A DNA stretch of 64,000 bases from Acidobacteriaceae bacterium (GTDB taxonomy: Bacteria > Acidobacteriota > Terriglobia > Terriglobales > Acidobacteriaceae), in NCBI GenBank assembly GCA_003134855.1, contig PLCS01000009.1, forward strand, positions 18,327 to 82,326, read 5' to 3'. Below, in pieces: positions 1,449 through 57,835 of this stretch (positions within the stretch are counted from its first letter, which is position 1; each line of letters opens with the position of its first letter). A program made the position numbers and the translations under genes. The notes beneath the pieces are model-generated. The model was given only the letters and a program-made list of their open reading frames with translations, made no database searches and was not told the origin of the DNA.

Positions 1449-2600
1449 CTACCAATCGAAGGGGAACGACGTTTTCCCCAAGATCAAATCGAAAACGGGC
1501 TTGAAGATTCCATCGCCGTTGGAGCTGTTTGTCATGATGAGGAGACCGTCGCCATCGCTGAAGCATAGGCCCTGATGCCGCCATCCGTCATCATATCCGC
1601 CTTTGAAGAAGACATTTCCATAGGGAGAGGAGTATAGTCCCCAACCCAGACCGGCACTCAATTTAATCGCGTCGTGTGCGGTCGTGGTCTCAGGGGCGAG
1701 CGACGGAAACTGGTGCGTGGAGTGGATCTTCACCTGGGGCTTAAACATCTCTGCTGTAGTTTTTGGGTTCAGGACTTGGTTGCGCATGACCGCGCTCAAA
1801 AAGGTTGCGTAATCGTGCAGCGTTGTCTGCATGGAGCCGGCGGCGCCCGGCTTGGAACGCTTTTGCGGTCCGAGTGATTGCCCATGTTCGTTATATCCGT
1901 TGGCAAAGTCGCTCTCGAACCGTGGCTCCCAAACCATGCTGGTGCGCGTCATCCCCAAAGGACCGAATAGATCTTCTTGCATCAGAGCAGTCAGAGATTT
2001 TCCGGTCACAGTCTCGACGACGAGTTGCGCAAGCTGGAATCCCTCACCACTGTAAGCGTAGCGCGTGCCCGGTTCGAAGTGAATCTTGAGCTTATGGTCG
2101 TCCTCGAACCACCGCCAATTGGGAAAGCCGCTGGTATGGCTCAGCAGAGTTCGCAGGGTAAGTTTCTTGTACCGGTCGTCGCCACTGAGGTCCGTATATT
2201 TCTCATACTCGGGAAGGGGCTTTGGTAGGTATCGCTGGATGGGCAAATCGAGATCGAGGACGCCATTCTGCACCAGACGCATGACCACAGTCGCAAAGGC
2301 AGCCTTGCTCATCGAGGCAGCGGGCATTACTGAGTCCTGCGTAAGAGTCAAGCCTTTCTCGGTATCGCTCTGGCCATAGGCTTTGAGGTAGGAGATTTTG
2401 CCATTGTGAAAGACCGCGATGCCTACGCCGGTGACGTTGGCATCCTTCATGAGTCGTGCCACCGTCGCGTCGATTTCTGTGGAAGTCAGACTACTGCCGT
2501 CAGGGCGCAGAATGGCTGTCGGAGCCAAGGGTTGCTGCGCTGGCGCGGACGAGAATCCGAGCAAGAAGACTATTGCTGCCAGAGTGCTCGGTTGGATCAT
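1449..2600 (-). CDS. Secreted serine hydrolase of the beta-lactamase/penicillin-binding protein class C family
   Basis: 383 residues from an ATG at 2600 with GGAGG five bases upstream; a longer frame exists but this start gives a clear signal peptide (residues 1-21, ending PAQ). The class C serine hydrolase catalytic elements are visible: S96-M-S-K99 (nucleophile and general base), Y183-S-G in place of the usual Y-x-N, and H342-Q-G344 near the C-terminus. Members are esterases, DD-peptidases or beta-lactamase-like hydrolases, so the substrate cannot be named. It stands alone, between two dispersed repeats, and its HQG third motif is more typical of esterase-like members than of true AmpC (KTG). 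Confidence 0.88.
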   Translation of the reverse strand: MIQPSTLAAIVFLLGFSSAPAQQPLAPTAILRPDGSSLTSTEIDATVARLMKDANVTGVGIAVFHNGKISYLKAYGQSDTEKGLTLTQDSVMPAASMSKAAFATVVMRLVQNGVLDLDLPIQRYLPKPLPEYEKYTDLSGDDRYKKLTLRTLLSHTSGFPNWRWFEDDHKLKIHFEPGTRYAYSGEGFQLAQLVVETVTGKSLTALMQEDLFGPLGMTRTSMVWEPRFESDFANGYNEHGQSLGPQKRSKPGAAGSMQTTLHDYATFLSAVMRNQVLNPKTTAEMFKPQVKIHSTHQFPSLAPETTTAHDAIKLSAGLGWGLYSSPYGNVFFKGGYDDGWRHQGLCFSDGDGLLIMTNSSNGDGIFKPVFDLILGKTSFPFDW

Positions 2601-2775
2601 TGTTCCTCCATCCCGAACATACACACCCTGCCCGAGTCTAGAAGCTAATACGAGAGTAGTCGCGAAATCGTTCAATAATTGTTTGGGTTCGAAAACGGAC
2701 AACAAAATCAGATTGACCAACGATTTTAATGCCCGTGAACGCCCATGTCGCCAAGAGGGACCCTCACTTCGTGGT

Positions 2776-2975
2776 AAATCGCCAATGCACTCAAATGCAC
2801 TCATTGGTAGCAGATCGGTCCCGCAAAGTCGGCAAGCGTTCACCGATGTTTACAGCCGATTTGCAAATCTGAATGTCGGTTGGCCGGGCGCCCCAGGTCT
2901 CGATTGAAACCTGGAGCGTCCGGCCGTTCCATCCCGCGACCCGAAATAGCATCGCATCAAGCAACGTTTCTGTCC
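2776..2975 (+). repeat. ~180-base inverted repeat, left copy
   Basis: Matches the reverse complement of 9430-9603 almost base for base (shared words include GTTCACCGATGTTTACAGCC and GAATGTCGGTTGGCCGGGCG). The left copy differs by a 10-base internal duplication (AATGCACTCA at 2784-2803). It includes the palindrome CCCAGGTCTCGATTGAAACC (2901-2923) of the REP-like family described at 11056. The stretch 2601-2976 has no other content. Confidence 0.85.
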
Positions 2976-2976
2976 C

Positions 2977-3345
2977 CTATTCCCCGTTCTCTGTTTCCTC
3001 GTCTTCTTCTTTTCCCTGCCACTGCGGCTCCGCCGACAACCGCTCAGCCAGGCTCAGCCCGCGCCGCTTCTTCACCGGCTCCGGGATTGGCTTCTTGCGC
3101 TCCGCAAGCCCAAACAGCACCTTGGCGCTGTTCAGGTCTCCTTTGAGCGCCTTACCCTCCAGCATATCGGCAAGTTGCTCCGAAATCCGGCCCACCCGCC
3201 TGTCCGCCGCCTGTCGCAGTTGCTCCGCTCCGTCCTTGCGCGACTTGCTTCTCCGGCGCGCCCGTTGAACTACCTTGTCTTTGGTAGTCCTGCCTGTTGT
3301 TCTGCTCGCATTCTCTGTCCTCAACGTCTGCTGTGTTGCAGCCAT
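2977..3345 (-). CDS. Small, very charged hypothetical protein
   Basis: 122 residues from an ATG at 3345 preceded by GGCGGAAAG. The protein is rich in Lys, Arg, Glu and Gln; the first 50 residues are basic and low in complexity, the middle (about 55-95, with the string LEGKALKGDLNSAKVLFGL) is predicted helical, and the tail is acidic. The helical part looks like the short hypothetical proteins often seen near mobile DNA. No enzymatic motif is seen. It lies just inside the inverted repeat and upstream of the MmyA-like gene. Confidence 0.5.
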   Translation of the reverse strand: MAATQQTLRTENASRTTGRTTKDKVVQRARRRSKSRKDGAEQLRQAADRRVGRISEQLADMLEGKALKGDLNSAKVLFGLAERKKPIPEPVKKRRGLSLAERLSAEPQWQGKEEDEETENGE

Positions 3346-36045: not shown

Positions 36046-37431
36046 TTATTCCTTTTCGACGAGTTGCTCTTGGATTTTGCCTGCGGCGAAGGATTCACGC
36101 AGCGCCCAGCCGGCGATCAGCAGACTGGGGGCAAGCGCGGGCGCCGCGTCGCCGAGAGCGGCGAGCGTGGTGGTGCAGATCTGCTGGCCGGGTTGCGCGG
36201 CGCGCGAGACGATGGCGCAGGGGAGCTCCAGAGGAAGGCCTTCGTCGAGCCACTGTTGCGCGAGCAAGCGCAGATCGCGACCCGGCATATAAACCACGCG
36301 GGTCGCATCTTCGAGTTGCGGCAGCGGCGCGTGCGTGGATCGGTTCTCCGCTTGCGATGGCGCGTGATGGCCAGTGGAGAAGATCACATTGGACGTACTG
36401 TTGCGGCTGGTGAGCGAGCAGCCGATGGCGGCGGCGGCGGCGAATGCGGCGGTGATGCCGGGGACGATTTCAAAGGCCACACCGGCTTCGGTGAGAGCGG
36501 CGATCTCCTCTGCGGCGCGGCTGAGGAGGAGCGGATCACCGCTCTTGAGGCGCACGACTGAGCGCCCCGACTGCGCCCGCTCGATCATCAGCGCGTTGAT
36601 CTCTTGCTGTGTGATGCTCTTCACGCCGCAGCGCTTGCCCACGTTGACGACTTCGGCGAGCGGTGAAGCCAGCGCGAGAATCGCTTGCGGAACAAGACCG
36701 TCGTGCAGAACGACATCGGCGGATTGAAGAAGGCGCAGAGCCTTGACGGTGAGCAGGTCGGGATCGCCGGGACCGGCTCCAATCAGATAGACCATCGCGC
36801 TTGAAGTGTCCGTCTGTTTGTCGAGCGGCGCGCGTGCCAACTGGCGCGAGGGGCAGACCTCAGAGTCGCAGAGCGGACGCTGCGCGAGTTGATGCAAGAG
36901 CAGCCTGCGCGCCTCGCCGCGCGGATGCGTTGCGAGAACTTCGCGGCGCAACCTTCCCACATCTTCAAGCCACGGGCCGAGGTCCTCGGGCAGTTGCTCG
37001 TCGATCTCGCGGCGCAACTGCTGCGCGACCGCTGGACTCTCGCCGGCGGTTGAAATAGCGATTTGCAGCGCGCCCCGGCTGACGACGGAACCAAAATAAA
37101 AATCGCAGTTGGGAGGGTCGTCCACGCTGTTGGCCAGAATCCTGCGCGCGACAGCTTCCTGATAAACTTGTGCGTTGGCTTCGGCGGAATCGGTGGCGGC
37201 GATGACTAAATCAATGCCATCGAGGTCGGCGATTGCAAAGGGCCGCTCGATCCATTCGAGACGGCCATCGATTGCGAGCTGCCGGATTTCCTGTCGTGCC
37301 ACCGGAGCGACCACGCGCAGCCGCAAGCCAGTCTTGAGCAGGCTATTGATCTTATCGAACGCAACCGTGCCCGCGCCGACTACGAGGCCGCGGCGACCGT
37401 CGAGTTTGAGAAAGATTGGCAACAGGCCCAT
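36046..37431 (-). CDS. cysG: Sirohaem synthase (fused dehydrogenase/ferrochelatase and methyltransferase)
   Basis: 461 residues. Makes sirohaem, the cofactor of sulfite reductase, from uroporphyrinogen III. The N-terminal ~205 residues are the precorrin-2 dehydrogenase/ferrochelatase part (NAD motif GLVVGAGTVAFDKI, then NSVDDPPNCDFYFGSVV), and the C-terminal ~250 are uroporphyrinogen-III C-methyltransferase (YLIGAGPGDPDLLTVKALR, VVRLKSGDPLL). The linker (180-210) is long and poorly conserved. It starts ten bases after the sulfite reductase stop with GAGG in front, so the two form an operon. Confidence 0.93.
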   Translation of the reverse strand: MGLLPIFLKLDGRRGLVVGAGTVAFDKINSLLKTGLRLRVVAPVARQEIRQLAIDGRLEWIERPFAIADLDGIDLVIAATDSAEANAQVYQEAVARRILANSVDDPPNCDFYFGSVVSRGALQIAISTAGESPAVAQQLRREIDEQLPEDLGPWLEDVGRLRREVLATHPRGEARRLLLHQLAQRPLCDSEVCPSRQLARAPLDKQTDTSSAMVYLIGAGPGDPDLLTVKALRLLQSADVVLHDGLVPQAILALASPLAEVVNVGKRCGVKSITQQEINALMIERAQSGRSVVRLKSGDPLLLSRAAEEIAALTEAGVAFEIVPGITAAFAAAAAIGCSLTSRNSTSNVIFSTGHHAPSQAENRSTHAPLPQLEDATRVVYMPGRDLRLLAQQWLDEGLPLELPCAIVSRAAQPGQQICTTTLAALGDAAPALAPSLLIAGWALRESFAAGKIQEQLVEKE

Positions 37432-37441
37432 GGTTTAAACC

Positions 37442-39139
37442 TCAATCGGCGACGCCGTGCGGCACATGGCCGGCGGGCAGATCGCGCTCCACCGGCGCCA
37501 AAACCTCACCCGCTAAATCGGCGCGCAGTTCATCATTGCTATGGCGCAGGAACCAGGCGCGCAGATTTTCTTCTGACTGGCGAGTCGCGAGGTAGTGGCG
37601 CAGCAGCCGCTCGATCGCTTCCGGCACCAGCGTCGCGGGGCAGCGAAAGCCCACCGTGCGAGCGATGGCTGCGTGCCGGCCCACCGCGCCGCCGAGGCAG
37701 AAATAATAAGCGTCGATGAGCTTGCCTTCGTGCTTGATCTTCTTGCCCTCGATGCCGATGTCGGCGATCCAATGCTGGCCGCATCCGTTGGGGCAGCCGG
37801 TGACGTTGAGCCTGAGCTGCTGATCGAATTCAGGCAGCCGCTCTTCGAGTTCATCGACCAGCCAGCGTGTAAAGCCCTTGGTCTCGGTAATGGCCAGCTT
37901 GCAGAACTCGGTGCCCGTGCAGGCGACCGCACCACGCCAGAAGTTCGAGCCATCGACTTGCAATCCGATCCGGTTCAGTTCCCTCGCCAGTTCCGCAGTT
38001 TTGTTGTTGGGAATGTCGATGAACAACAGATTCTGGCTAACGGTAGTGCGCAACGCGCCGCTGCCGAAGCGCTCGGCGAGCTCGGCGGCGGCGAGCAACT
38101 GATCCGCGCTGAGGCGGCCGCGCAGCACCGAAGCGCCAACGTAACTCAAGCCCGGCTGGCGTTGCGCGTGAATGCCGGCGTGATCGCGGAAGATGTCGTC
38201 GGGCACTTGCTCCGGCGCCGCGGGCAGAAGCTTGAAGTCGAGCCGCGACTGAAGCTCTGCAAGAAAACTATTAGCGGTCCAACCTTCTTTCATGAAGAGG
38301 TACTTCATGCGCGCCTGTGCGCGGTTCTCGCGCAGGCCCTGCTGCTCGCGAAAGATTTCGGCCACGGCGCGCGTCACGCGCACCGCCTGTTCGGGCAATA
38401 CGAATACATTGAGGCGAACAGCAAGGTGCGGCTCCCTGGAGAGGCCGCCGCCGACGCGCAGCGAGTAGCCGATCTGGCCGTTGAACTCGGTTGCGGTGAG
38501 GGCGATGTCGTTGATCTCCGGATGAGAGCACCAGGAGGGACAGCCGGTCACGCAGATTTTGAACTTGCGCGGCAGGTTATAGAACTCCGGGTTGCCCTTG
38601 AGCATGAGCGAAATCTCATCGGCGAGCGGCGAGGAATCGATCAACTCATCGGCAGCCACGCCAGCCAACGGGCAGCCGGTCACGTTGCGAACCACATCGC
38701 CGCAGGCGCTTATCGGCGAGAGCTCGATTGCGTTCAGTGCATCCACAACCTCAGGCAGCGATTCAATGGTGAGCCAGTGAAGCTGAATGCATTGGCGGAC
38801 GGTGATGTCGGCGAGGTTACGCGCATGCTTTTGCGCAAGGCCCGCGATGACGCGAAGCTGCGCGGCGCTGACGATGCCGTTGGGAATGCCGATGCGCATC
38901 ATGAAATAATCGGAGGCCAGGCCCTCGCCGCCTTTGCCGCCGGTGGCGCCCACGCCGTCGCCCTGGGTGTAAATGCCCCACCACTTGAAGTAAAACGCCG
39001 CCCACTCGGGCAGCACGCTCGAGCGCCCCTGGCGCGCGAACTCGCGCACCTCATCGAAGGCCTCCCACGGATTCTTTTCGCGCTTCAGGCGCTCCGCGCG
39101 CTGCGCATTGGTCTCTTTCACTGGAGTTTCTTGACTCAT
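37442..39139 (-). CDS. sir: Ferredoxin-type sulfite reductase (nitrite/sulfite reductase family)
   Basis: 565 residues. Six-electron reduction of sulfite to sulfide with sirohaem and a [4Fe-4S] cluster. Cluster/sirohaem cysteines are in ACTGTEFCK (about 405-413) and VTGCPNGCGQHW (about 445-455); the duplicated N-terminal half has VTGCPLAGV. The family also includes ferredoxin-nitrite reductase, but the operon with cysG, the adjacent cysDNH genes and the cysteine leader argue for sulfite. ATG 39139 has GAGGAT upstream and follows immediately on the stop of a short frame that crosses the attenuator. Confidence 0.88.
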   Translation of the reverse strand: MSQETPVKETNAQRAERLKREKNPWEAFDEVREFARQGRSSVLPEWAAFYFKWWGIYTQGDGVGATGGKGGEGLASDYFMMRIGIPNGIVSAAQLRVIAGLAQKHARNLADITVRQCIQLHWLTIESLPEVVDALNAIELSPISACGDVVRNVTGCPLAGVAADELIDSSPLADEISLMLKGNPEFYNLPRKFKICVTGCPSWCSHPEINDIALTATEFNGQIGYSLRVGGGLSREPHLAVRLNVFVLPEQAVRVTRAVAEIFREQQGLRENRAQARMKYLFMKEGWTANSFLAELQSRLDFKLLPAAPEQVPDDIFRDHAGIHAQRQPGLSYVGASVLRGRLSADQLLAAAELAERFGSGALRTTVSQNLLFIDIPNNKTAELARELNRIGLQVDGSNFWRGAVACTGTEFCKLAITETKGFTRWLVDELEERLPEFDQQLRLNVTGCPNGCGQHWIADIGIEGKKIKHEGKLIDAYYFCLGGAVGRHAAIARTVGFRCPATLVPEAIERLLRHYLATRQSEENLRAWFLRHSNDELRADLAGEVLAPVERDLPAGHVPHGVAD

Positions 39140-39154
39140 TTATCCTCTTCGCCG

Positions 39155-39193
39155 AAAACAGAAAACCCGCGGCAGTGTTGGCTGCGACGCGGG
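39155..39193 (-). terminator. Intrinsic terminator (attenuator) in the sulfite reductase leader
   Basis: On the transcript: CCCGCG-tc-GCAG-CCAACA-CTGC-CGCGGG, a ten-pair GC-rich stem (39166-39193), followed at once by TTTTCTGTTTT (39165-39155). It lies after the cysteine leader peptide and 16 bases before the sulfite reductase ATG, so it cannot be the end of another gene. A second short frame, MPASQPTLPRVFCFRRRG (39140-39196), runs through it and stops directly before the ATG of sir. Confidence 0.8.
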
Positions 39194-39234
39194 CATTGGG
39201 GAACCGTGGATTCGATCTGAACGTTAGACCCAGG

Positions 39235-39288
39235 TCACCTGCGCGCGCGAAGCAATGTACAGCGGCGACAACAGAGTTGACCTTGCAT
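39235..39288 (-). CDS. Cysteine leader peptide of the sir-cysG operon
   Basis: 17 codons reading MQGQLCCRRCTLLRARR, with tandem TGT TGT and a third TGT three codons later. Its ATG falls where transcription should start from the promoter at 39295-39323 (six bases after the -10), so the message would be leaderless. Downstream lies an intrinsic terminator and then the sulfite reductase gene. I infer that ribosome pausing at the cysteine codons, when Cys-tRNA is scarce, prevents the terminator from forming. Confidence 0.65.
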   Translation of the reverse strand: MQGQLCCRRCTLLRARR

Positions 39289-39294
39289 ATAGAA

Positions 39295-39323
39295 ATACTA
39301 TGGGCGGGTAGTGCGAAAGTCAA
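39295..39323 (-). promoter_or_regulatory. Sigma70-type promoter of sir-cysG
   Basis: On the minus strand TTGACT (39323-39318), 17-base spacer, TAGTAT (39300-39295). It is back to back with the porin promoter; the two -35 boxes form a perfect inverted repeat GTCAAG-N7-CTTGAC at 39319-39337. Confidence 0.65.
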
Positions 39324-39332
39324 GTTTCCCTC

Positions 39333-39361
39333 TTGACAAGGATTTGAATGTCGTTTAAGTT
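39333..39361 (+). promoter_or_regulatory. Sigma70-type promoter of the porin gene
   Basis: Perfect TTGACA (39333-39338), 17-base spacer, TAAGTT (39356-39361; weak -10). Predicted start near 39368, 17 bases before the CCCC leader peptide and about 325 bases before the porin start codon. Confidence 0.55.
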
Positions 39362-39384
39362 GAAAAAACAGAGTTGCTCACGAG

Positions 39385-39432
39385 ATGAAAACCTTCTTGA
39401 TCAAAATCGCGTGTTGTTGCTGTCTCCGCTAG
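39385..39432 (+). CDS. Four-cysteine leader peptide upstream of the porin gene
   Basis: 15 codons reading MKTFLIKIACCCCLR, with four consecutive cysteine codons (TGT TGT TGC TGT). It is the first ORF of the transcript expected from the promoter at 39333. The leader between it and the porin has a hairpin GGCCGCTCA/TGAGCGGGCC at 39549-39568 followed later by a T-rich run (39588-39600), but no ideal terminator. The chance of CCCC next to a sulfur gene set being accidental is low. Confidence 0.65.
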   Translation: MKTFLIKIACCCCLR

Positions 39433-39692
39433 CGCCCGCTGGCCCGTCCGCGATTTTATTTCTCCCAATCGAAGCACACCCATTGATTTTGCGAGTACCG
39501 GATGCCCGTCTCCGCAACCATCGCCGCGCACTTGTTTGAGGACTCTGGCCGCTCATTGAGCGGGCCGGAAACGGCGTATTGCTCGTGTTGTTGTTTTCTT
39601 CCCACCTATCGATAAAGGTCTGTCGCCCCATGCGGGCCAGGGCCTAAGGTTCTAACCAATCCCCAGCTTCCCAAATTCCAAGGAGAGTCCAA

Positions 39693-41198
39693 GTGCAAAT
39701 AGCTCTTTATAATTTCGTATCTGCTTCTCTGCGCCGGTTGCCGCTATCGATCTCTGCTGTGCTTTTTCTGTTTGCTATAGCGGCCGGCCTGCCCGTGGCC
39801 GCGCAGGACGACATCACCACGCAAAACGCGACGTCCGCGTTCAATGGCGCATACATCACCGGGCCGGAGGCGAACCCGTTGAGCTTCCTGAACGGCGCGG
39901 CCTGGCGGACTACCGGCAACCCGGCGCCCTATAACTTTCACGACTTTGCCCCGGCGACCTATGTTGACGCAAAACTGCCCAAGTGGATTGACTTGCAGGC
40001 CGAGGAGCGGTTCCGGTACGAGGGGTACAGCAATTCCAGCTTCAAGGCGAAGGTCGATGACTCCTACCTGTTGAACCGATTCCGGTTTCAGGTGGATCTG
40101 CGTACGCCCAGTTGGTTCCGGGTTACGGCGCAGGTGCAGGACGCTCGTGCGGGCTTCCAAAACCCGCCGATCGGCCCGCCAAACACGGTTCGCTGGGATT
40201 TGAAAAAGGCTTACGCCGAGATCGGCGCGCCCGACAAGCACTGGTTCAGCCTGCGCGTGGGCCGGCAGCTCATCAACTACAACAACACCATCATCGCCAA
40301 CTCCGAGTGGCGCAACCAGGCCCGTTCCTACGATGCGGCGGTGCTGAACCTGAATGCGAAGCGCGAGCATCTGGGCATCTTCGCCGCCTCGGCTATCGTG
40401 CCGCAGGCCTATGGCGTGAGCCCGCATCAGGAAGGCAACAACATCTACGGAGCCTACGGCCGCATCGATGATTTTCTTGTGCCGCACTCGAACCTTGAGC
40501 CGTTCTTCCTATGGCGCGTCCAGCCGGCAGAGGTGGTGGAAGCCGCCAAGGGCAAGACCACCGGCAAGGAAAACGAGAAGGCTTTTGGTGTGCGCTTCAA
40601 GGCGCAAGCACACAAGACGCTCGATTACGGGGGCGAGGTGATCTACGAAGGCGGCACGGTGGGACCGCAAAGCATCGGCGCCTGGGCGGGACAGGTAGGC
40701 GCGGCGTATCAGTTCCTCAATGCAGTTGCCAAGCCGCGCGTCTTTACCCAGTACGACTACGCATCGGGCAACAGCAATCCGGCAACGAACGCAAAGCACT
40801 CCACTTTCGACACGATCTACCCGACAGCCCACGACCGCCTTGGAATCGCCGACCTCTTCGGCTGGCAGAACATTGAGTCGGTGCGCGCGGGAGCCACCGT
40901 TGAGCCCCACCGGCGGCTCAGCTTCACGGTTCAGGGGCTGGACTTTTGGGTTGCCTCGGCTTTGGACTCGATCTACAACACTTCGGGCAGTTCGATCGTG
41001 TTTAACAAGACCGCCCACGGCCGCCATCTAGGCGCGGAAATCGATGGGTACTCCTGGTATGAACTCAATAAGCACTTCAACGTGGGCGGCGGCATTGGCT
41101 ACTTCGGCGCGGGTGAGTTCCTGACGAATGTGACAACCAGCCACTCGTACACGTACTACTACTTTGCGCTGAACTTCAAAGACAACGGAAAGAAGTAG
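39693..41198 (+). CDS. Outer-membrane porin of the alginate-export family
   Basis: 501 residues from a GTG at 39693 behind AAGGAGAGTCCAA. Signal peptide (hydrophobic to about 35, ending PVAAQ). The rest shows the alternating pattern of a beta barrel, with DLQAEERFRYEGYSN opening the first strands, WFSLRVGRQLINYNNTIIAN typical of the alginate-export (PF13372) family, and a final aromatic strand SYTYYYFALNFKDNGKK. Its position behind a four-cysteine leader and among sulfate genes suggests uptake of sulfate or an organosulfur compound, although the family name comes from alginate. Confidence 0.82.
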   Translation: MQIALYNFVSASLRRLPLSISAVLFLFAIAAGLPVAAQDDITTQNATSAFNGAYITGPEANPLSFLNGAAWRTTGNPAPYNFHDFAPATYVDAKLPKWIDLQAEERFRYEGYSNSSFKAKVDDSYLLNRFRFQVDLRTPSWFRVTAQVQDARAGFQNPPIGPPNTVRWDLKKAYAEIGAPDKHWFSLRVGRQLINYNNTIIANSEWRNQARSYDAAVLNLNAKREHLGIFAASAIVPQAYGVSPHQEGNNIYGAYGRIDDFLVPHSNLEPFFLWRVQPAEVVEAAKGKTTGKENEKAFGVRFKAQAHKTLDYGGEVIYEGGTVGPQSIGAWAGQVGAAYQFLNAVAKPRVFTQYDYASGNSNPATNAKHSTFDTIYPTAHDRLGIADLFGWQNIESVRAGATVEPHRRLSFTVQGLDFWVASALDSIYNTSGSSIVFNKTAHGRHLGAEIDGYSWYELNKHFNVGGGIGYFGAGEFLTNVTTSHSYTYYYFALNFKDNGKK

Positions 41199-41222
41199 GC
41201 AACTGGGCAATCAAATTCAAAA

Positions 41223-41298
41223 GCGCCGGTGGCGAAGCGGTTAACGCGCAGGTCTGCAAAACCTGTATACGCGGGTTCAACTCCCGCCCGGCGCTCCA
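41223..41298 (+). tRNA. tRNA-Cys (anticodon GCA)
   Basis: Acceptor stem GCGCCGG (41223-41229) pairs with CCGGCGC (41288-41294), discriminator T and encoded CCA (41296-41298). Anticodon stem CAGGT/ACCTG closes the loop CTGCAAA with anticodon GCA at 41256-41258. T arm GCGGG-TTCAACT-CCCGC. It lies between the porin gene and the cysD promoter, in the middle of the cysteine-synthesis locus. Confidence 0.95.
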
Positions 41299-41354
41299 AA
41301 TTTTTCGAATCGAATTCCGATTTAGGCACATCTTAGAAAGAAAATGTATTTGGA

Positions 41355-41383
41355 TTGCATTTGTCCGAAATCATTGGTACTAT
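41355..41383 (+). promoter_or_regulatory. Sigma70-type promoter of cysD-cysN-cysH
   Basis: TTGCAT (41355-41360), 17-base spacer, TACTAT (41378-41383). Transcription would begin near 41390, four bases before the leader peptide ATG. Confidence 0.6.
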
Positions 41384-41393
41384 GAGATTGCAC

Positions 41394-41462
41394 ATGAATC
41401 GCGCCTCTCAAAGCCGCTCTTGTTGTCGCCTGTCGATGATCTTCGACGGGTGCATGAATTAG
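41394..41462 (+). CDS. Cysteine leader peptide upstream of cysD
   Basis: 22 codons beginning MNRASQSRSCCRLS and ending DGCMN, with adjacent cysteine codons 10-11 and a third near the end. The ATG lies about four bases from the predicted transcription start. An eight-pair hairpin CCTGTCGA/TCGACGGG (41428-41450) overlaps the codons just after CC. Downstream, CGCTGAA (41509) can pair with TTCAGCG (41542), close to the cysD ribosome binding site. No T-run terminator is seen, so control could act on translation. Confidence 0.6.
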   Translation: MNRASQSRSCCRLSMIFDGCMN

Positions 41463-41573
41463 TCTCTGATTCCCCACTAGCAGTTCATCAGAAGACGCAC
41501 CCCTCGCTGAAAAGCCGGTGTGCGAACTCGCAGCATCGACCTTCAGCGATTCACTCACTGAAAGAGGTCATGC

Positions 41574-42527
41574 ATGCCGGTTGCCGAAGTCCTATCTCCT
41601 CCATCGCCGCCAGTGAACGCATCTGCTTCGCAGCGCCTGAGCCATCTGCGCCTGCTGGAAGCCGAGAGCATTCACATTCTGCGCGAAGTGGCTTCTGAAT
41701 TCGAGCGGCCCGTCATGCTCTACTCGATCGGCAAGGATTCGTCCGTCATGCTGCGGCTGGCGCAGAAGGCCTTCTATCCCGCGCCGATTCCATTTCCACT
41801 GCTGCACGTGGACACCGGCTTCAAGTTTGCCGAGATGATCAGCTTTCGCGATGCGATGGCTCGCTCGGTGGGCGCGGAGCTGCTGGTCTGGCGCAATGAA
41901 ACCGCGATTGCAGCGGGAACAAATCCTATAGCGCTCGACACCAAGCGCTGCTGCGGATTGCTGAAGACACAGGCGCTGCTCGATGCGCTGCGCCACTACA
42001 ACTTCGACGCGGCCTTCGGCGGCGCTCGCCGCGACGAAGAAAAATCGCGCGCCAAGGAGCGCATCTATTCCTTCCGCGACTCGGCCGGACAATGGGATCC
42101 GAAGAATCAGCGCCCCGAGCTGTGGAATCTCTACAACGCCCGCGTTCATCCCGGCGAAAGCATTCGCGTCTTTCCGCTCTCCAACTGGACGGAGATGGAC
42201 GTTTGGCAATACATCCACGAAGAAAAAATCCCAGTGGTCGATCTGTATTTTGCCAAGGAGCGGCCGATGTACGTGCGTGGCGATGCGCTGCTACCCATTG
42301 AACAGGCATTTGTCGCGCGGCTCGGAGAGCAGCCACAGATGATCAAGTCGCGGTTGCGCTCGCTGGGATGCAGCCCATGCACAGGCGCGATTCGCTCCGA
42401 CGCCGACACGCTGCCGAAGATTATTGCAGAGCTGCTGCAATTCCGCTCCTCGGAGCGCGCCAACCGCGTCATCGATCACGACCAGGAAGGGTCGATGGAG
42501 ATCAAGAAGCGGGAGGGCTACTTCTAA
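41574..42527 (+). CDS. cysD: Sulfate adenylyltransferase subunit 2
   Basis: 317 residues. With CysN it adenylates sulfate to APS. PP-loop [20 protein letters not shown] (split: SIGKDSS), HVDTGFKF, and [19 protein letters not shown] are all typical, as is the end [19 protein letters not shown]. Ribosome binding site AAAGAGG. The stop codon is followed directly by the cysN ATG. A first ~20-residue low-complexity extension (PPSPPVNAS) is unusual, and a later start is possible. Confidence 0.95.
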
Positions 42528-44234
42528 ATGGCGACGATTACGGCACAACCGTTTTCGGTAGGCGAGTTTCTCGCAGAAGAGCGCGAGAAAGATTTGCTGC
42601 GCTTCTCGACCGCGGGCAGCGTGGACGATGGAAAGTCCACGCTCATCGGCCGACTGCTCTACGACACGCAGTCGGTCTATGAAGATCAGGTGCGCTCCAT
42701 TGAAGGGAAGGGAACTACCGCTCCCGGACAAATTGATTTCGCATTGCTCACCGACGGCCTGCGCGCCGAGCGCGAGCAGGGCATCACCATCGATGTGGCC
42801 TATCGCTACTTCTCGACGCCGCGCCGCAAGTTTATCATCGCGGATACGCCGGGCCATGAGCAGTACACACGCAATATGGCCACTGGCGCATCGACGGCAG
42901 ATGCCGCGGTAGTGTTGATCGATGCCAGCAAAGGCGTGCTGATTCAGTCGCGCCGCCATGCATATATCGCATCGCTGCTGCGCGTGCGCCACGTTCTTGT
43001 TGCAGTGAACAAGATGGATTTGATCGGCTACGATGAAGCGGCCTTCCGCGCCATCGAACGGGACTTCACATCAGTCCTCAATCAAATTGCAGCCGATACC
43101 GGCAGTCCTGTTGAAGTTTGCTTCGTTCCGGTCAGCGCGCTTGCCGGAGACAACATCGTGCATCGTTCCGATGCAATGCCGTGGTACAAGGGACCATCGC
43201 TGTTGGAGCTTCTGGAGTCGCTGCCATCGGCGCTGGAAACGCGCGCCGCGCCCTTTCGCTTTCCCGTGCAGCGCGTTCTTCGTCCCGATCATACCTTTCG
43301 CGGATTTGCCGGCCAGGTTGCTTCTGGAACCGTGCGCGCCGGCGACAAAATCACCGTGCTTCCCTCGGGCAGAAACGCTCAGATCGCGCGCATTGTAACC
43401 TTTGATGGAGACCTCAGTGAGGCCATAGCGCCGCAATCGGTCACGCTGGTTTTGGATCGTGAGCTCGACGTCAGCCGCGGCGATCTGATCGTTTCCACGC
43501 AAGCGCAGGCAACGGTCGCCAAGCGCCTTCAGGCCGCGCTCGTCTGGATGGATGCTCGGCCGCTTCAGCGCAATCGCCGCTATCTGCTGAAGCACACCAG
43601 CCAGACCGTGCCCGCATTTGTTTCATCGCTGGAGCATCGCACCAACATCGGCACGCTGGCGCACGAAGCCGCTGAGACGCTGGAGATGAACGGCATCGGC
43701 GTGGTCAACATTGATTTGCTGCGTCCGATCGCTCTCGACCTTTACGGCGAGAATCGCTCGACCGGCGCATTCATTCTGATCGACGCCGAAACCAACAGTA
43801 CCGTCGCAGCCGGCATGATCACCGCGGCCTCCAACCCGGCAACTTCAACTTCAGGTCCGGTGACAGCGGAGGAGAGAGCCGCGCGCTGGGGTCATCGCGG
43901 CGGCGTTCTTGAATTGACGGGGCCGGTTGAGCTGATTGATCGAATCGAGCGCTCGCTCTTTTTTCGCGGCGCGATCACCGCGCGCATTGAATTGGATGCC
44001 GTAACTGGAATTGACTTTAGCATAGTGGATCACCTGATCCGATCGAAGGTTCTCGCGGGAATGATCGCGCTGATCGTCAATCTGGCCGCGGGCGAGACTC
44101 TCACCGCGCAAGCCGATGGCGAACAAATCACTCTCAACGCAAGTGATCCGGTTGCAGCGATTGTGGCCGTGAATGAGCTACTGGCGCGGAGCGGCATTCT
44201 TTTGTCGTCAGGAAACGCGGATTGGGAAATATAG
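42528..44234 (+). CDS. cysN: Sulfate adenylyltransferase GTPase subunit with a degenerate APS kinase-like tail
   Basis: 568 residues; the usual CysN is ~470 and the CysN-CysC fusion ~640. GTPase motifs: G1 GSVDDGKST (30-38), DTPGHEQYTRNM, NKMDL. It couples GTP hydrolysis to APS synthesis. From about residue 448 the sequence ARWGHRGGVLELTGPVELID runs like the start of APS kinase (which has GHR...LTGLSGAGKST), but the Walker A residues are absent. I therefore read residues 448-568 as a non-catalytic remnant of a CysC domain. The downstream CysH is of APS-reductase type, so kinase activity is not needed. Confidence 0.9.
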   Translation: MATITAQPFSVGEFLAEEREKDLLRFSTAGSVDDGKSTLIGRLLYDTQSVYEDQVRSIEGKGTTAPGQIDFALLTDGLRAEREQGITIDVAYRYFSTPRRKFIIADTPGHEQYTRNMATGASTADAAVVLIDASKGVLIQSRRHAYIASLLRVRHVLVAVNKMDLIGYDEAAFRAIERDFTSVLNQIAADTGSPVEVCFVPVSALAGDNIVHRSDAMPWYKGPSLLELLESLPSALETRAAPFRFPVQRVLRPDHTFRGFAGQVASGTVRAGDKITVLPSGRNAQIARIVTFDGDLSEAIAPQSVTLVLDRELDVSRGDLIVSTQAQATVAKRLQAALVWMDARPLQRNRRYLLKHTSQTVPAFVSSLEHRTNIGTLAHEAAETLEMNGIGVVNIDLLRPIALDLYGENRSTGAFILIDAETNSTVAAGMITAASNPATSTSGPVTAEERAARWGHRGGVLELTGPVELIDRIERSLFFRGAITARIELDAVTGIDFSIVDHLIRSKVLAGMIALIVNLAAGETLTAQADGEQITLNASDPVAAIVAVNELLARSGILLSSGNADWEI

Positions 44235-44273: not shown

Positions 44274-44972
44274 ATGAGCACAATAGAAATTCAAGCGCAG
44301 GTAAAGACCAAACTCGATGAAGTGCGCGCAGCTCTTGCGCGAGAAATCTCCGGCAAGCAGGATGCGTGCCTGACATGCAGCTTTCAGGCCGAAGATGTGT
44401 TGCTCGCGAAGCTGGCGCTGGAATTCGATGCGAACATTCCGATTCTATTTCTCGACACAGGCTATCACTTCGCCGAGACCTACGCCTATCGGGACCGCAT
44501 GGCAAGCGAGTGGCAATTGAATCTCATCAATCTGCTGCCGGTGCATACTGTTGCCGAACAGGAGGCGGAGCACGGACTCCTCTATCAATCGGCGCCGGAT
44601 CAGTGCTGCAAGCTGCGCAAGGTTGAGCCGCTCTTCAAGGCGGTTGCTGAATACCGCGTGTGGATTACCGGCTTGCGCAGGGAGCAGGCCAAGAGCCGGA
44701 CAAATCTTGAGGAGTCGGCGCTCTTCACGCTGCCCGGCGGCAAGCAGGTGCTCAAGCTGGCGCCCCTCGCTGCATGGACGACGCGCTACGTTTGGTACGC
44801 CTGCGAATTGCTGTCGATTCCGCTGCTACCGCTTTATGAGCGCGGCTACTCCTCCATCGGTTGCGAGCCATGTACATCGCTTCCGCTGGATCCAAACGAT
44901 GCGCGCTCCGGACGCTGGGCGGGCCGCAAGGTTGAATGCGGCATTCACATTGAGGCAGCGCCGAGGCAATAG
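44274..44972 (+). CDS. cysH: Adenylyl-sulfate (APS) reductase, assimilatory
   Basis: 232 residues. Reduces APS (or PAPS) to sulfite with thioredoxin or glutathione. The cysteine pairs C111-C112 (QCCKLRKVE) and C197-x-x-C200 (GCEPCTS) are the four ligands of the [4Fe-4S] cluster found in APS-type enzymes and absent in PAPS-only enzymes such as E. coli CysH. The catalytic cysteine is C222 in VECGIH. PP-loop region SFQAEDVLL replaces the classic SxG motif. ATG 44274 follows GGAAAGGAAGC, 39 bases after cysN, so it belongs to the operon. Confidence 0.93.
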   Translation: MSTIEIQAQVKTKLDEVRAALAREISGKQDACLTCSFQAEDVLLAKLALEFDANIPILFLDTGYHFAETYAYRDRMASEWQLNLINLLPVHTVAEQEAEHGLLYQSAPDQCCKLRKVEPLFKAVAEYRVWITGLRREQAKSRTNLEESALFTLPGGKQVLKLAPLAAWTTRYVWYACELLSIPLLPLYERGYSSIGCEPCTSLPLDPNDARSGRWAGRKVECGIHIEAAPRQ

Positions 44973-45001: not shown

Positions 45002-45808
45002 ATGCAGTACCTTATTGGATTCGTTATCGCGTTGTTTATCGCGCTCACCGGAGTGGGCGCGGGCACTGTCACCGTGCCGGTTCTGGTCTTGTTTCTCGGA
45101 GTCCCCGCACCAATTGCCGTCGGCATCGGATTGATGTTCGCGACGGCAGTCAAATTGATTTTGGTTCCAGCGCAAATCATGCGCCGCAACGTTGCCTGGC
45201 GGACACTGGGATTCATGCTGATGGGCGGCATCCCCGGCGTGATCATCGGCTCGCTCTTCTTGAAACATCTGGTAAACGCTGGATCGCAGAACCTGATGAA
45301 CGCGCTGCTGGGCACGATACTGGTGACGACCGCTGCCTATCAGATCTTCGTATCCTTTCGTCCGCATAATTCCATGGCGCACAAGCGCGACCGTACTCCA
45401 CTGCTTTCGTGGCTGATGTTCCCGGTGGGAGCCGAGGTCGGCTTTTCTTCCGCCGGCGCGGGCGCGCTGGGATCGGCGGCGCTGCTCAGCCTGACGCCGC
45501 TGCTGCCCGCGCAAGTGGTGGGCACGGACATCGCCTTCGGCTTTGTCGTCTCGCTGATCGGCAGCGGCGCGCACTGGTTCTCGCACGCCTCGAACCCGGA
45601 GCTGCTGATTCACCTCATCACGGGTGGCGTCGCCGGATCCATTGTTGGAACGCTGGTCAGCACCCGCGTCCCGCGCCGGCCGCTGCGCTTTGCGCTGTGG
45701 GTTTGGCTGCTGATCCTGGGCGGGCAGTTTCTCTTCAATAGCTATACAGCATGGGCAATTCCGCACAAGCAGACGGTGAGCCTCTCCCAACCGGCTCATC
45801 GAAGCTAG
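45002..45808 (+). CDS. TauE/SafE-family sulfite or sulfonate exporter
   Basis: 268 residues with about eight hydrophobic segments. GAGAGTVTVPVLVLFLGVP near the N-terminus and GFSSAGAGALGSAALLSLTPL in the middle are the duplicated family motifs. Members move sulfite, sulfonates or sulfolactate across the inner membrane. ATG 45002 has AAGGAGAGA directly upstream, 29 bases after cysH, so it is probably co-transcribed, and may release excess sulfite or import a sulfur compound. It overlaps the end of the converging aminotransferase gene by four bases. Confidence 0.88.
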   Translation: MQYLIGFVIALFIALTGVGAGTVTVPVLVLFLGVPAPIAVGIGLMFATAVKLILVPAQIMRRNVAWRTLGFMLMGGIPGVIIGSLFLKHLVNAGSQNLMNALLGTILVTTAAYQIFVSFRPHNSMAHKRDRTPLLSWLMFPVGAEVGFSSAGAGALGSAALLSLTPLLPAQVVGTDIAFGFVVSLIGSGAHWFSHASNPELLIHLITGGVAGSIVGTLVSTRVPRRPLRFALWVWLLILGGQFLFNSYTAWAIPHKQTVSLSQPAHRS

Positions 45809-57604: not shown

Positions 57605-57835
57605 CGATCTATTGATCCGGGAGAACCCCCGGCTTTGCCGGGGAGGCAGTAGAAGTTTGACATTTGCAGGTTTCGTTCCCGGATTGTGTTTTTACCTTCT
57701 TCTCGTAAAAATGTTAGAAAGGCGCGAAGCATGAGCGCCGTCCCTATGGGACTCCGGATGAATTATTGGTTTCGCCAACCCCACGCTGAAGCGCGGGGCT
57801 AACAACCATTGCGCCTTCGGCGCAGACGATGGGCT
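57605..57835 (+). repeat. Hairpin CCCCCGGCTTTGCCGGGG and three-palindrome repeat, copy 3
   Basis: CCCCCGGCTTTGCCGGGG at 57626-57643 is followed by a T-rich tract. Then 57733-57835 repeats the three-palindrome unit at 28972-29080 (CGTCCCTATGGGACTCCGG, CCCACGCTGAAGCGCGGGG, TGCGCCTTCGGCGCA). The gap 57560-57884 has no gene. Confidence 0.82.

Follow-up and report, generated by a model that had tools for sequence, protein, structure and literature searches.

What controls a bacterial sulfate-assimilation locus whose genes are preceded by minute open reading frames (ORFs) rich in cysteine codons? The question is raised by a 64,000-nucleotide (nt) stretch of contig PLCS01000009.1, here called the window, from an Acidobacteriaceae bacterium with a genome of 3.94 Mb. 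It carries sir and cysG on the minus strand and a porin gene, a gene for cysteine tRNA (tRNA-Cys), cysD, cysN, a cysH-type gene and tauE on the plus strand. A preliminary description had reported three Cys-codon mini-ORFs, ahead of sir, the porin gene and cysD, and had taken them for leader peptides that control the locus. All three lie where they were reported, and the interpretation is supported by the sequence comparisons set out below; as an account of the locus it was right in kind but too small, missing a second porin leader, the tRNA-Cys and a regulon that extends across the family. We consider it very likely that the leaders act as ribosome-mediated attenuators that read the supply of cysteinyl-tRNA (Cys-tRNA), over a sulfur regulon that includes the tRNA-Cys gene itself.

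Conservation of the leaders upstream of sir and cysD

The leaders share a common anatomy, are conserved within the family, and are enriched far above controls. In the window, the sir leader (MQGQLCCRRCTLLRARR) occupies 39235..39288 on the minus strand and the cysD leader (MNRASQSRSCCRLSMIFDGCMN) 41394..41462 on the plus strand. Upstream DNA of both genes was collected from family genomes (200 searched per gene; the most similar cysD genes sit on contigs from Acidobacteriaceae, Silvibacterium, Edaphobacter and Granulicella), and a leader was scored as an ATG mini-ORF of 8-45 codons with a Cys-Cys doublet (CC) and at least three Cys, at most 280 nt upstream. For sir, 90 of 136 places were examined, the least similar being mostly left out, and one (L157) was dropped for too little upstream DNA; for cysD, 70 of 94 places were taken. 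Such a leader is present in 63 of 89 sir loci, where dinucleotide shuffles expect 2.1 and the reverse strand gives none, and in 56 of 70 cysD loci, where shuffles expect 2.65 and the reverse strand gives two; the permutation and shuffle tests used here and below ignore relatedness. Both sets thereby show one trait of the trp-type attenuators: a short ORF in which the pathway's own amino acid is encoded several times in succession.

Alignment with relatives, the check that the preliminary description had proposed, finds the ATG, the Cys run and the stop retained while the remainder drifts, with a leader in all eight same-genus genomes examined for sir and all seven for cysD. Cultured relatives with a cysD leader include Terriglobus albidus (L064) and Edaphobacter (now Tunturiibacter) lichenicola (L038). 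The peptides (for example MFELTCCRCQMPLRAHG, MIHSSIPVICCGCCPAFAGL and MQTAKNTCCCSAACCCV) have little in common beyond the Cys run, and a Cys run as the sole shared feature is the usual mark of control codons. One near relative (L013, genome G197) has a cysD leader that lacks the Cys doublet; parts of its region are still alignable. Sir homologues outside the family gave eight matches, seven of them with loci, and a leader in none of the seven.

Could the Cys runs simply be chance products of GC-rich DNA? Mini-ORFs that start with ATG, have at most 45 codons and contain CC are frequent across the window (46 rows, counting nested starts and gene overlaps), so that the three ORFs alone prove little; but shuffles, reverse strands and conservation all contradict chance, whose probability we regard as vanishingly small. 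The leaders might also encode genuine thiol peptides, namely small metal- or redox-active proteins as opposed to cis regulators. Cys-rich peptides can bind metals, and a 1-Cys peroxiredoxin gene lies behind some leaders, but neither the length nor the non-Cys residues of the peptides are conserved and terminators lie directly 3' of the leaders, which makes this explanation exceedingly unlikely.

Promoters, start sites and codon use

Sigma70-like promoters were found at the sites predicted by the preliminary description: TTGACT-N17-TAGTAT ahead of the sir leader (39295..39323, minus strand; nine of 12 matches, kept in relatives), TTGACA-N17-TAAGTT ahead of the porin leader (39333..39361, plus strand; TTGACA and spacing the same in two relatives) and TTGCAT-N17-TACTAT, with TGG preceding the -10 box, ahead of the cysD leader (41355..41383, plus strand; TG and TAnnnT conserved). 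A -10 box 6-14 nt before the ATG places the predicted transcription start at the ATG or a few bases 5' of it. The suggestion of leaderless transcripts made in the preliminary description thus holds for sir (6 nt from -10 box to ATG) and nearly so for cysD (10 nt), and fails for the porin leader (23 nt); its cysD start codon at 41382 shares bases with the -10 box TACTAT (41378-41383) and has to be replaced by the start conserved in relatives, 41394.

Of 119 leaders, 96 have a good sigma70-like promoter whose end lies 6-14 nt 5' of the ATG, 58 of these at 6-7 nt, compared with an equally good score at 1.9% of 778 other ATGs in the same regions; the score is the best over alternative ATGs and distances, and so tilts somewhat toward leaders. 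Only 7% of leaders have a Shine-Dalgarno-like sequence ahead of them, as against 74% of main genes. An ATG at the transcription start without a Shine-Dalgarno sequence, the trait of a leaderless polycysteine attenuator, is therefore predicted for these leaders, the first porin leader being the exception. Codon use is likewise distinctive: TGT supplies 471 of 657 Cys codons in the leaders, is a rare Cys codon in the genes behind them (17 of 329), and is used for 2 of the 44 Cys codons counted in ten of the window's main genes. The leaderless-promoter pattern was also tried as a genome-wide finder of regulon members and rejected, because the sir leader is the sole short Cys-run leader among its 16 places in this genome; another match (L257) has CC within a 57-codon frame.

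Terminators and modelled stalling

Terminators were scored as hairpins of -9 kcal/mol or stronger with at least four T in the following seven bases, GTG-start leaders being allowed. By this measure, all 67 sir leaders scored are followed by a terminator (shuffles, 13%), as are 38 of 59 cysD leaders (64%; shuffles, 16%); at a cut-off of -14 kcal/mol the figures are 82% against 2% for sir and 53% against 2% for cysD. The terminator of the window's sir leader (39165..39194, minus strand; -17.3 kcal/mol) lies in the interval between leader and gene and is followed by TTTCTGTTTT. An intrinsic terminator between leader and gene, a second trait of the trp-type attenuators, is hence found in the sir and cysD sets and is absent from this genome's cysD (L001). 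A simple promoter and terminator scan of 39100-41640, with loops of up to eight bases, recovered the promoter of sir but did not report a terminator at any of the attenuators.

Stalling was modelled by removing the RNA up to the ribosome's front edge and taking the pairing of the terminator 5' arm before the 3' arm exists; two sir leaders (L167 and L181), whose terminators begin within reach of the ribosome, were dropped from the 67. Mean upstream pairing of the 5' arm in the sir set (n=65) is 0.68 with the ribosome stalled at Cys, 0.36 with the ribosome at the stop, 0.56 untranslated and 0.52 with the intervening RNA shuffled; the corresponding values for cysD (n=38) are 0.73, 0.32, 0.55 and 0.54. 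Pairing in the stalled state exceeds that at the stop in 63/65 sir and 37/38 cysD leaders, that of the untranslated RNA in 50/65 and 31/38, and that with shuffled RNA in 56/65 and 37/38. The difference between stall and stop reflects in part the greater length of free RNA, for which the shuffled and untranslated states serve as controls. In these models, then, stalling would favour an antiterminator, a further trait of the trp-type attenuators.

The cysD leader of this genome

Alignment of 14 near relatives (L013, with its Cys codons lost, was left out, and duplicate genomes are possible) yields a common helix 1:2 immediately 3' of the Cys codons and a set of alternative helices. In the window, helix 1:2 lies at 41427..41453 (plus strand, as are the elements that follow), and its 3' part has an alternative partner at 41497-41502 (helix 2:3); helix 3:4 (41497..41524) pairs GCACCCC with GGTGTGC and has no U-run on its 3' side, and a hairpin of GACCTTCAG with CTGAAAGAGGTC (41538..41569) covers the cysD Shine-Dalgarno sequence. 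Arms from one sequence pair better with each other than with those of other sequences for 3:4 (p 0.001), 5:Shine-Dalgarno (0.0045), 1:2 (0.028) and 4':5 (0.05); helix 2:3 is uninformative in this test because it is invariant. RNAalifold, run on this group, returned helix 1:2 only, without two-sided change, and the other helices rest on the duplex tests. From the untranslated to the stalled state the mean probability of helix 2:3 rises from 0.19 to 0.69, although five of the 14 sequences stay close to zero, and helix 3:4 is weaker stalled than at the stop in 14/14. As far as these folding models go, the sensing half of the cysD switch in this genome appears well supported.

Its output half bears on an explanation under which the leaders sense cysteine but work through translation or Rho, as has been proposed for mycobacteria, with the hairpins carrying little weight. 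Such a mechanism would fit the cysD leaders of this genome and its near group, which have no U-run behind helix 3:4, as well as the arms of the Shine-Dalgarno hairpin, which match better within than between sequences (the p of 0.0045 given above), and the 21 of 59 cysD leaders for which no terminator was scored. It sits poorly, however, with intrinsic terminators at all the sir leaders scored and most of the cysD leaders, far above shuffles, and with the Shine-Dalgarno sequence itself: the candidate switch in which stalling frees that of cysD was unsupported (access 0.24 and 0.21, p 0.81). We therefore think it rather unlikely that translation or Rho is the general route.

Tandem leaders of the porin and of outer-membrane barrels

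Two leaders precede the porin gene, all on the plus strand. The first (MKTFLIKIACCCCLR, 39385..39432) overlaps a terminator-like hairpin, AAAATCGCG...CGCGATTTT (39403..39457; -16.3 kcal/mol), whose loop holds the Cys codons; the second Cys-run leader (39502..39615) ends in ...YCSCCCFLPTYR. Two genus members (G525 and G532) share this gene order of porin, tRNA-Cys and cysD, their porins being 92% and 87% identical to that of the window, and keep both the first leader (MKNFLIKFACCCCCR, MQIILTKIACCCCLR) with its hairpin (-16.8 and -16.3 kcal/mol) and the second (MPQTTPIFTVRLEDSARAVNRSETALCSCCCCLPTY, MTLHTPISALTLERSAFVAGRPGTAHCCCCRCRALLFHD) amid diverging flanks, its Cys residues being retained through synonymous TGT/TGC changes. 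The pair is carried by close porin orthologues only: among homologues of at most 36% identity, 19 of them with loci, 18 are without any fitting leader, and neither the 8-codon ATG frame with CCC found 854 nt upstream in L279 nor the GTG frame of L262 was counted as one.

The same tandem stands ahead of large outer-membrane barrel genes that are divergent from cysD (OMP_b-brl_4 and CarboxypepD_reg domains in those tested), in the order first leader, terminator (8/12), and second mini-ORF with CC or CCC at or near its stop, as in MIRVWHIANCCCASNCCAGMCMHVN followed by MRPIFLQPGPTLQPAMLPLRCC. Of the 13 regions scored, 11 contain a second CC mini-ORF against an expectation of 0.23, namely those of the window's porin and of 10 of the 12 barrel genes. 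In 10 its CC lies no more than three residues from the stop (0.05 expected); these regions are not a blind sample, because they were assembled after such cases had been noticed (14 items, of which L333 was dropped for want of a first leader with CC and two without a second leader were kept in). Most of the second leaders (window 39502-39615; L291, L293, L327-L332, L334 and L335) end in TGTTGTTGA, that is Cys-Cys-UGA stop. Read-through of this UGA was considered and dropped, because several second leaders are not in frame with the gene behind them.

Strong conservation as RNA, seen in the porin hairpin and in parts of the cysD leader such as helix 1:2, could instead point to a protein- or ligand-binding element, a riboswitch, in which the reading frame is incidental. 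Yet peptides and RNAs vary across the family while in-frame Cys runs, mostly of TGT, recur; the synonymous changes in the second porin leader preserve Cys; and an Rfam search of the whole window at the gathering score returned only tRNA and Acido-Lenti-1, with no riboswitch, T-box or curated leader RNA. A riboswitch is accordingly highly unlikely.

Several results do weigh against attenuation by terminator and antiterminator. Leaders as we define them are wanting from 26/89 sir and 14/70 cysD regions, and 4/12 outer-membrane leaders scored no terminator. The equilibrium probability of the terminator shifts less than the 5'-arm pairing, with values of 0.78 stalled, 0.92 at the stop and 0.87 untranslated for sir and of 0.69, 0.91 and 0.82 for cysD; stalling lowers it by more than 0.2 in only 13/65 sir and 12/38 cysD leaders, and raises it in none. 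For this genome's own sir leader (L112), 5'-arm pairing is 0.85 stalled, 0.42 at the stop, 0.83 untranslated and 0.65 shuffled, so that stall and stop do differ but the stalled and untranslated states are nearly alike. In this genome, folding of the whole leader is no better than that of shuffles (z -0.02 for sir, 0.52 for the porin leader), and the unaltered access to the cysD Shine-Dalgarno sequence counts here as well.

An accessory tRNA-Cys behind the leaders

The window's tRNA-Cys gene (41223..41298, plus strand; anticodon GCA), with the porin stop 24 nt upstream, encodes an accessory isoacceptor, the canonical tRNA-Cys gene of this genome adjoining one for tRNA-Gly (L144). It has what a functional tRNA-Cys should have, namely a cloverleaf, the GCA anticodon, U73 and CCA; ARAGORN and Rfam both match it, and an alignment of 17 shows compensated changes in the acceptor stem with U73 and CCA intact. 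The GCA anticodon and U73 are given as Cys identity elements in PMC7609411.

Accessory tRNA-Cys genes occur in 23 of 40 genus genomes and in 68 of 250 family genomes (17 of 79 genera). Within the genus set of 26 tRNA-Cys loci (25 accessory, and one canonical that has no leader), a Cys leader with terminator lies upstream, in the same orientation and within 1.5 kb, in 15, and in 0/26 of the controls, which were downstream DNA on the other strand; for further family loci (27 new ones out of 70 places) the count is 26/27, with a control of 0/27. Overall, the accessory gene lies behind Cys leaders at 44 of 50 informative loci (L345-L368, L373-L399 and the window), with a scored control of 0/53. 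The 44 include three porin loci (L143, which is that of the window, L345 and L346) at which the leaders precede the porin, more than 1.5 kb away; L357 and L364, with less than 100 nt upstream, are excluded from the 50.

In 17 loci no more than 330 nt separate the leader stop from the tRNA, and in the others a gene for a porin, a 1-Cys peroxiredoxin (two tested) or a rhodanese intervenes, the peroxiredoxin being frequent. Among the products encoded behind the tRNA are a Cons_hypoth698 protein, a solute-binding protein and an SrpI-like type 2A encapsulin shell. With a promoter score of 8 as the cut-off (background 3.5%), all 52 accessory genes lack their own promoter; at score 7, 21/52 have one (background 27%), and the canonical gene itself reaches only 7.0. 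Co-transcription with the leader is thus likely.

Some individual arrangements deserve mention. In L136:233-1090 and G097:C58:111609-111684, a Cys leader, terminator, 1-Cys peroxiredoxin gene, accessory tRNA-Cys, sir leader and sir follow one another, a row that parallels the leader, porin, tRNA-Cys, cysD leader and cysD of the window. Another (L371:6245-7943, on G525:C124) has a Cys leader, terminator, rhodanese gene, tRNA-Cys and SrpI-like type 2A encapsulin shell gene in a row, and at 2003-3332 a second Cys leader with tRNA-Cys ahead of a solute-binding protein gene. At L353, L386, L390 and L394, a gene that by sequence impression resembles a phage-type integrase begins close to the accessory tRNA-Cys, a possible attachment site.

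Layout of the locus

On the minus strand, domain matches identify a sir-type gene (NIR_SIR, 37442..39139) and a cysG-type gene (tetrapyrrole methylase and NAD-binding, 36046..37431); on the plus strand lie the gene for an outer-membrane porin (Alginate_exp, GTG start, 39693..41198), cysD (41574-42527), cysN (42528-44234), the cysH-type gene (44274-44972) and the TauE gene (45002-45808). The Acido-Lenti-1 RNA lies at 57779-57824 on the plus strand, with a score exactly equal to the gathering score.

A proposed model

We propose that transcription begins at the leader ATG or a few bases 5' of it, which would let a ribosome engage the TGT-rich mini-ORF immediately, and that expression would thereby come under the control of the Cys-tRNA level. 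With ample Cys-tRNA, the ribosome would reach the stop, the terminator hairpin would form, and transcription would end ahead of the gene; with Cys-tRNA scarce, it would stall on the Cys run, such that the RNA freed downstream could pair with the terminator 5' arm and allow read-through. Translation of the leaders, stalling, antitermination and a response to cysteine are all steps to which their sequence organisation points. The sir leader would be the simple case, with a terminator alone. At the porin, the 5' arm may be covered by the stalled ribosome itself, and the second Cys leader downstream would place two checks in series; the cysD leader of this genome may alternate between helices 1:2, 2:3 and 3:4 without a U-run, and deliver its output via Rho, pausing or translation. 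The regulon would extend to outer-membrane transporters, peroxiredoxin and the accessory tRNA-Cys gene.

We also lean, with some reserve, towards a 'closed loop', in which the accessory tRNA-Cys is transcribed behind attenuators that measure Cys-tRNA charging, alongside genes for sulfur uptake and peroxiredoxin, such that the switch would govern production of the very molecule through which it senses. Freshly transcribed tRNA, not yet charged, could strengthen the response or set its timing, or could furnish a Cys-tRNA reserved for sulfur or oxidative stress; the outer-membrane genes would add a second Cys leader in series.

Comparison with known systems

Earlier reports of attenuation at Cys codons concern mycobacteria, and there is a prediction for one order of Alphaproteobacteria; the family of soil Acidobacteria studied here appears to govern much of its sulfur economy in this way. 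The leader also acts as a free functional label, which marks the porin, the large outer-membrane barrels and the peroxiredoxin as candidate members of a cysteine response. To our knowledge, a tRNA gene behind attenuators that read the charging of the same tRNA species is undescribed, and the arrangement is directly testable. Among the literature matches listed, taken from titles and the beginnings of abstracts and with thin coverage of subscription papers, none concerned Cys leaders or an extra tRNA-Cys in Acidobacteria. A 2010 survey, as excerpted, found almost no predicted Acidobacteria attenuator with a known function (PMC2965389).

With the Cys leaders of actinobacteria, those described here share a short Cys-run ORF before cysteine or sulfur genes, a leaderless start and a predicted sensing of Cys supply by translation. 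Leaderless polycysteine ORFs have reportedly been treated as attenuators in mycobacteria by Canestrari (2020), cited in PMC13236596. The excerpts at hand describe Cys leader peptides at the cys operons of Mycobacterium and Propionibacterium acnes and at cbs of Bifidobacterium longum (PMC1262725), ribosome footprints on mycobacterial Cys upstream ORFs (uORFs; PMC4633059) and translation attenuation in M. smegmatis (PMC13236596). The first of these reports no conserved terminator hairpins at the actinobacterial leaders, whereas intrinsic terminators follow most of the acidobacterial leaders; the excerpts of all three likewise make no mention of tandem leaders or of an accessory tRNA-Cys downstream of a leader. 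Convergence and common descent seem to us equally probable, the latter being hard to judge because the peptides are too short and variable.

The uORFC-8-2 motif before cysS in Rhodobacterales has, in the excerpt of PMC8632094, two adjacent Cys codons in a stem followed by an intrinsic terminator, with read-through on stalling proposed. It thus shares with our leaders the Cys-doublet uORF, the terminator and the suggested mechanism, but belongs to another phylum and another gene, is dominated by UGC where ours favour TGT, and serves a single gene as opposed to a regulon. Rapidly growing mycobacteria express a second tRNA-Cys (cysU) with a GCA anticodon beside the canonical one, which the excerpts of PMC4524478 and PMC6582537 do not link to Cys leaders or sulfur genes. 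An extra GCA tRNA-Cys is nonetheless common to both groups.

The trp-type leader-peptide attenuators of Proteobacteria combine control codons, alternative helices and a terminator; the acidobacterial leaders differ from these in having Cys as the control amino acid, and a leader ATG predicted to lie at the transcription start without a Shine-Dalgarno sequence. Tandem short ORFs within one leader are known from mgtC and ermA, but in the pairs described here both leaders run for one and the same amino acid.

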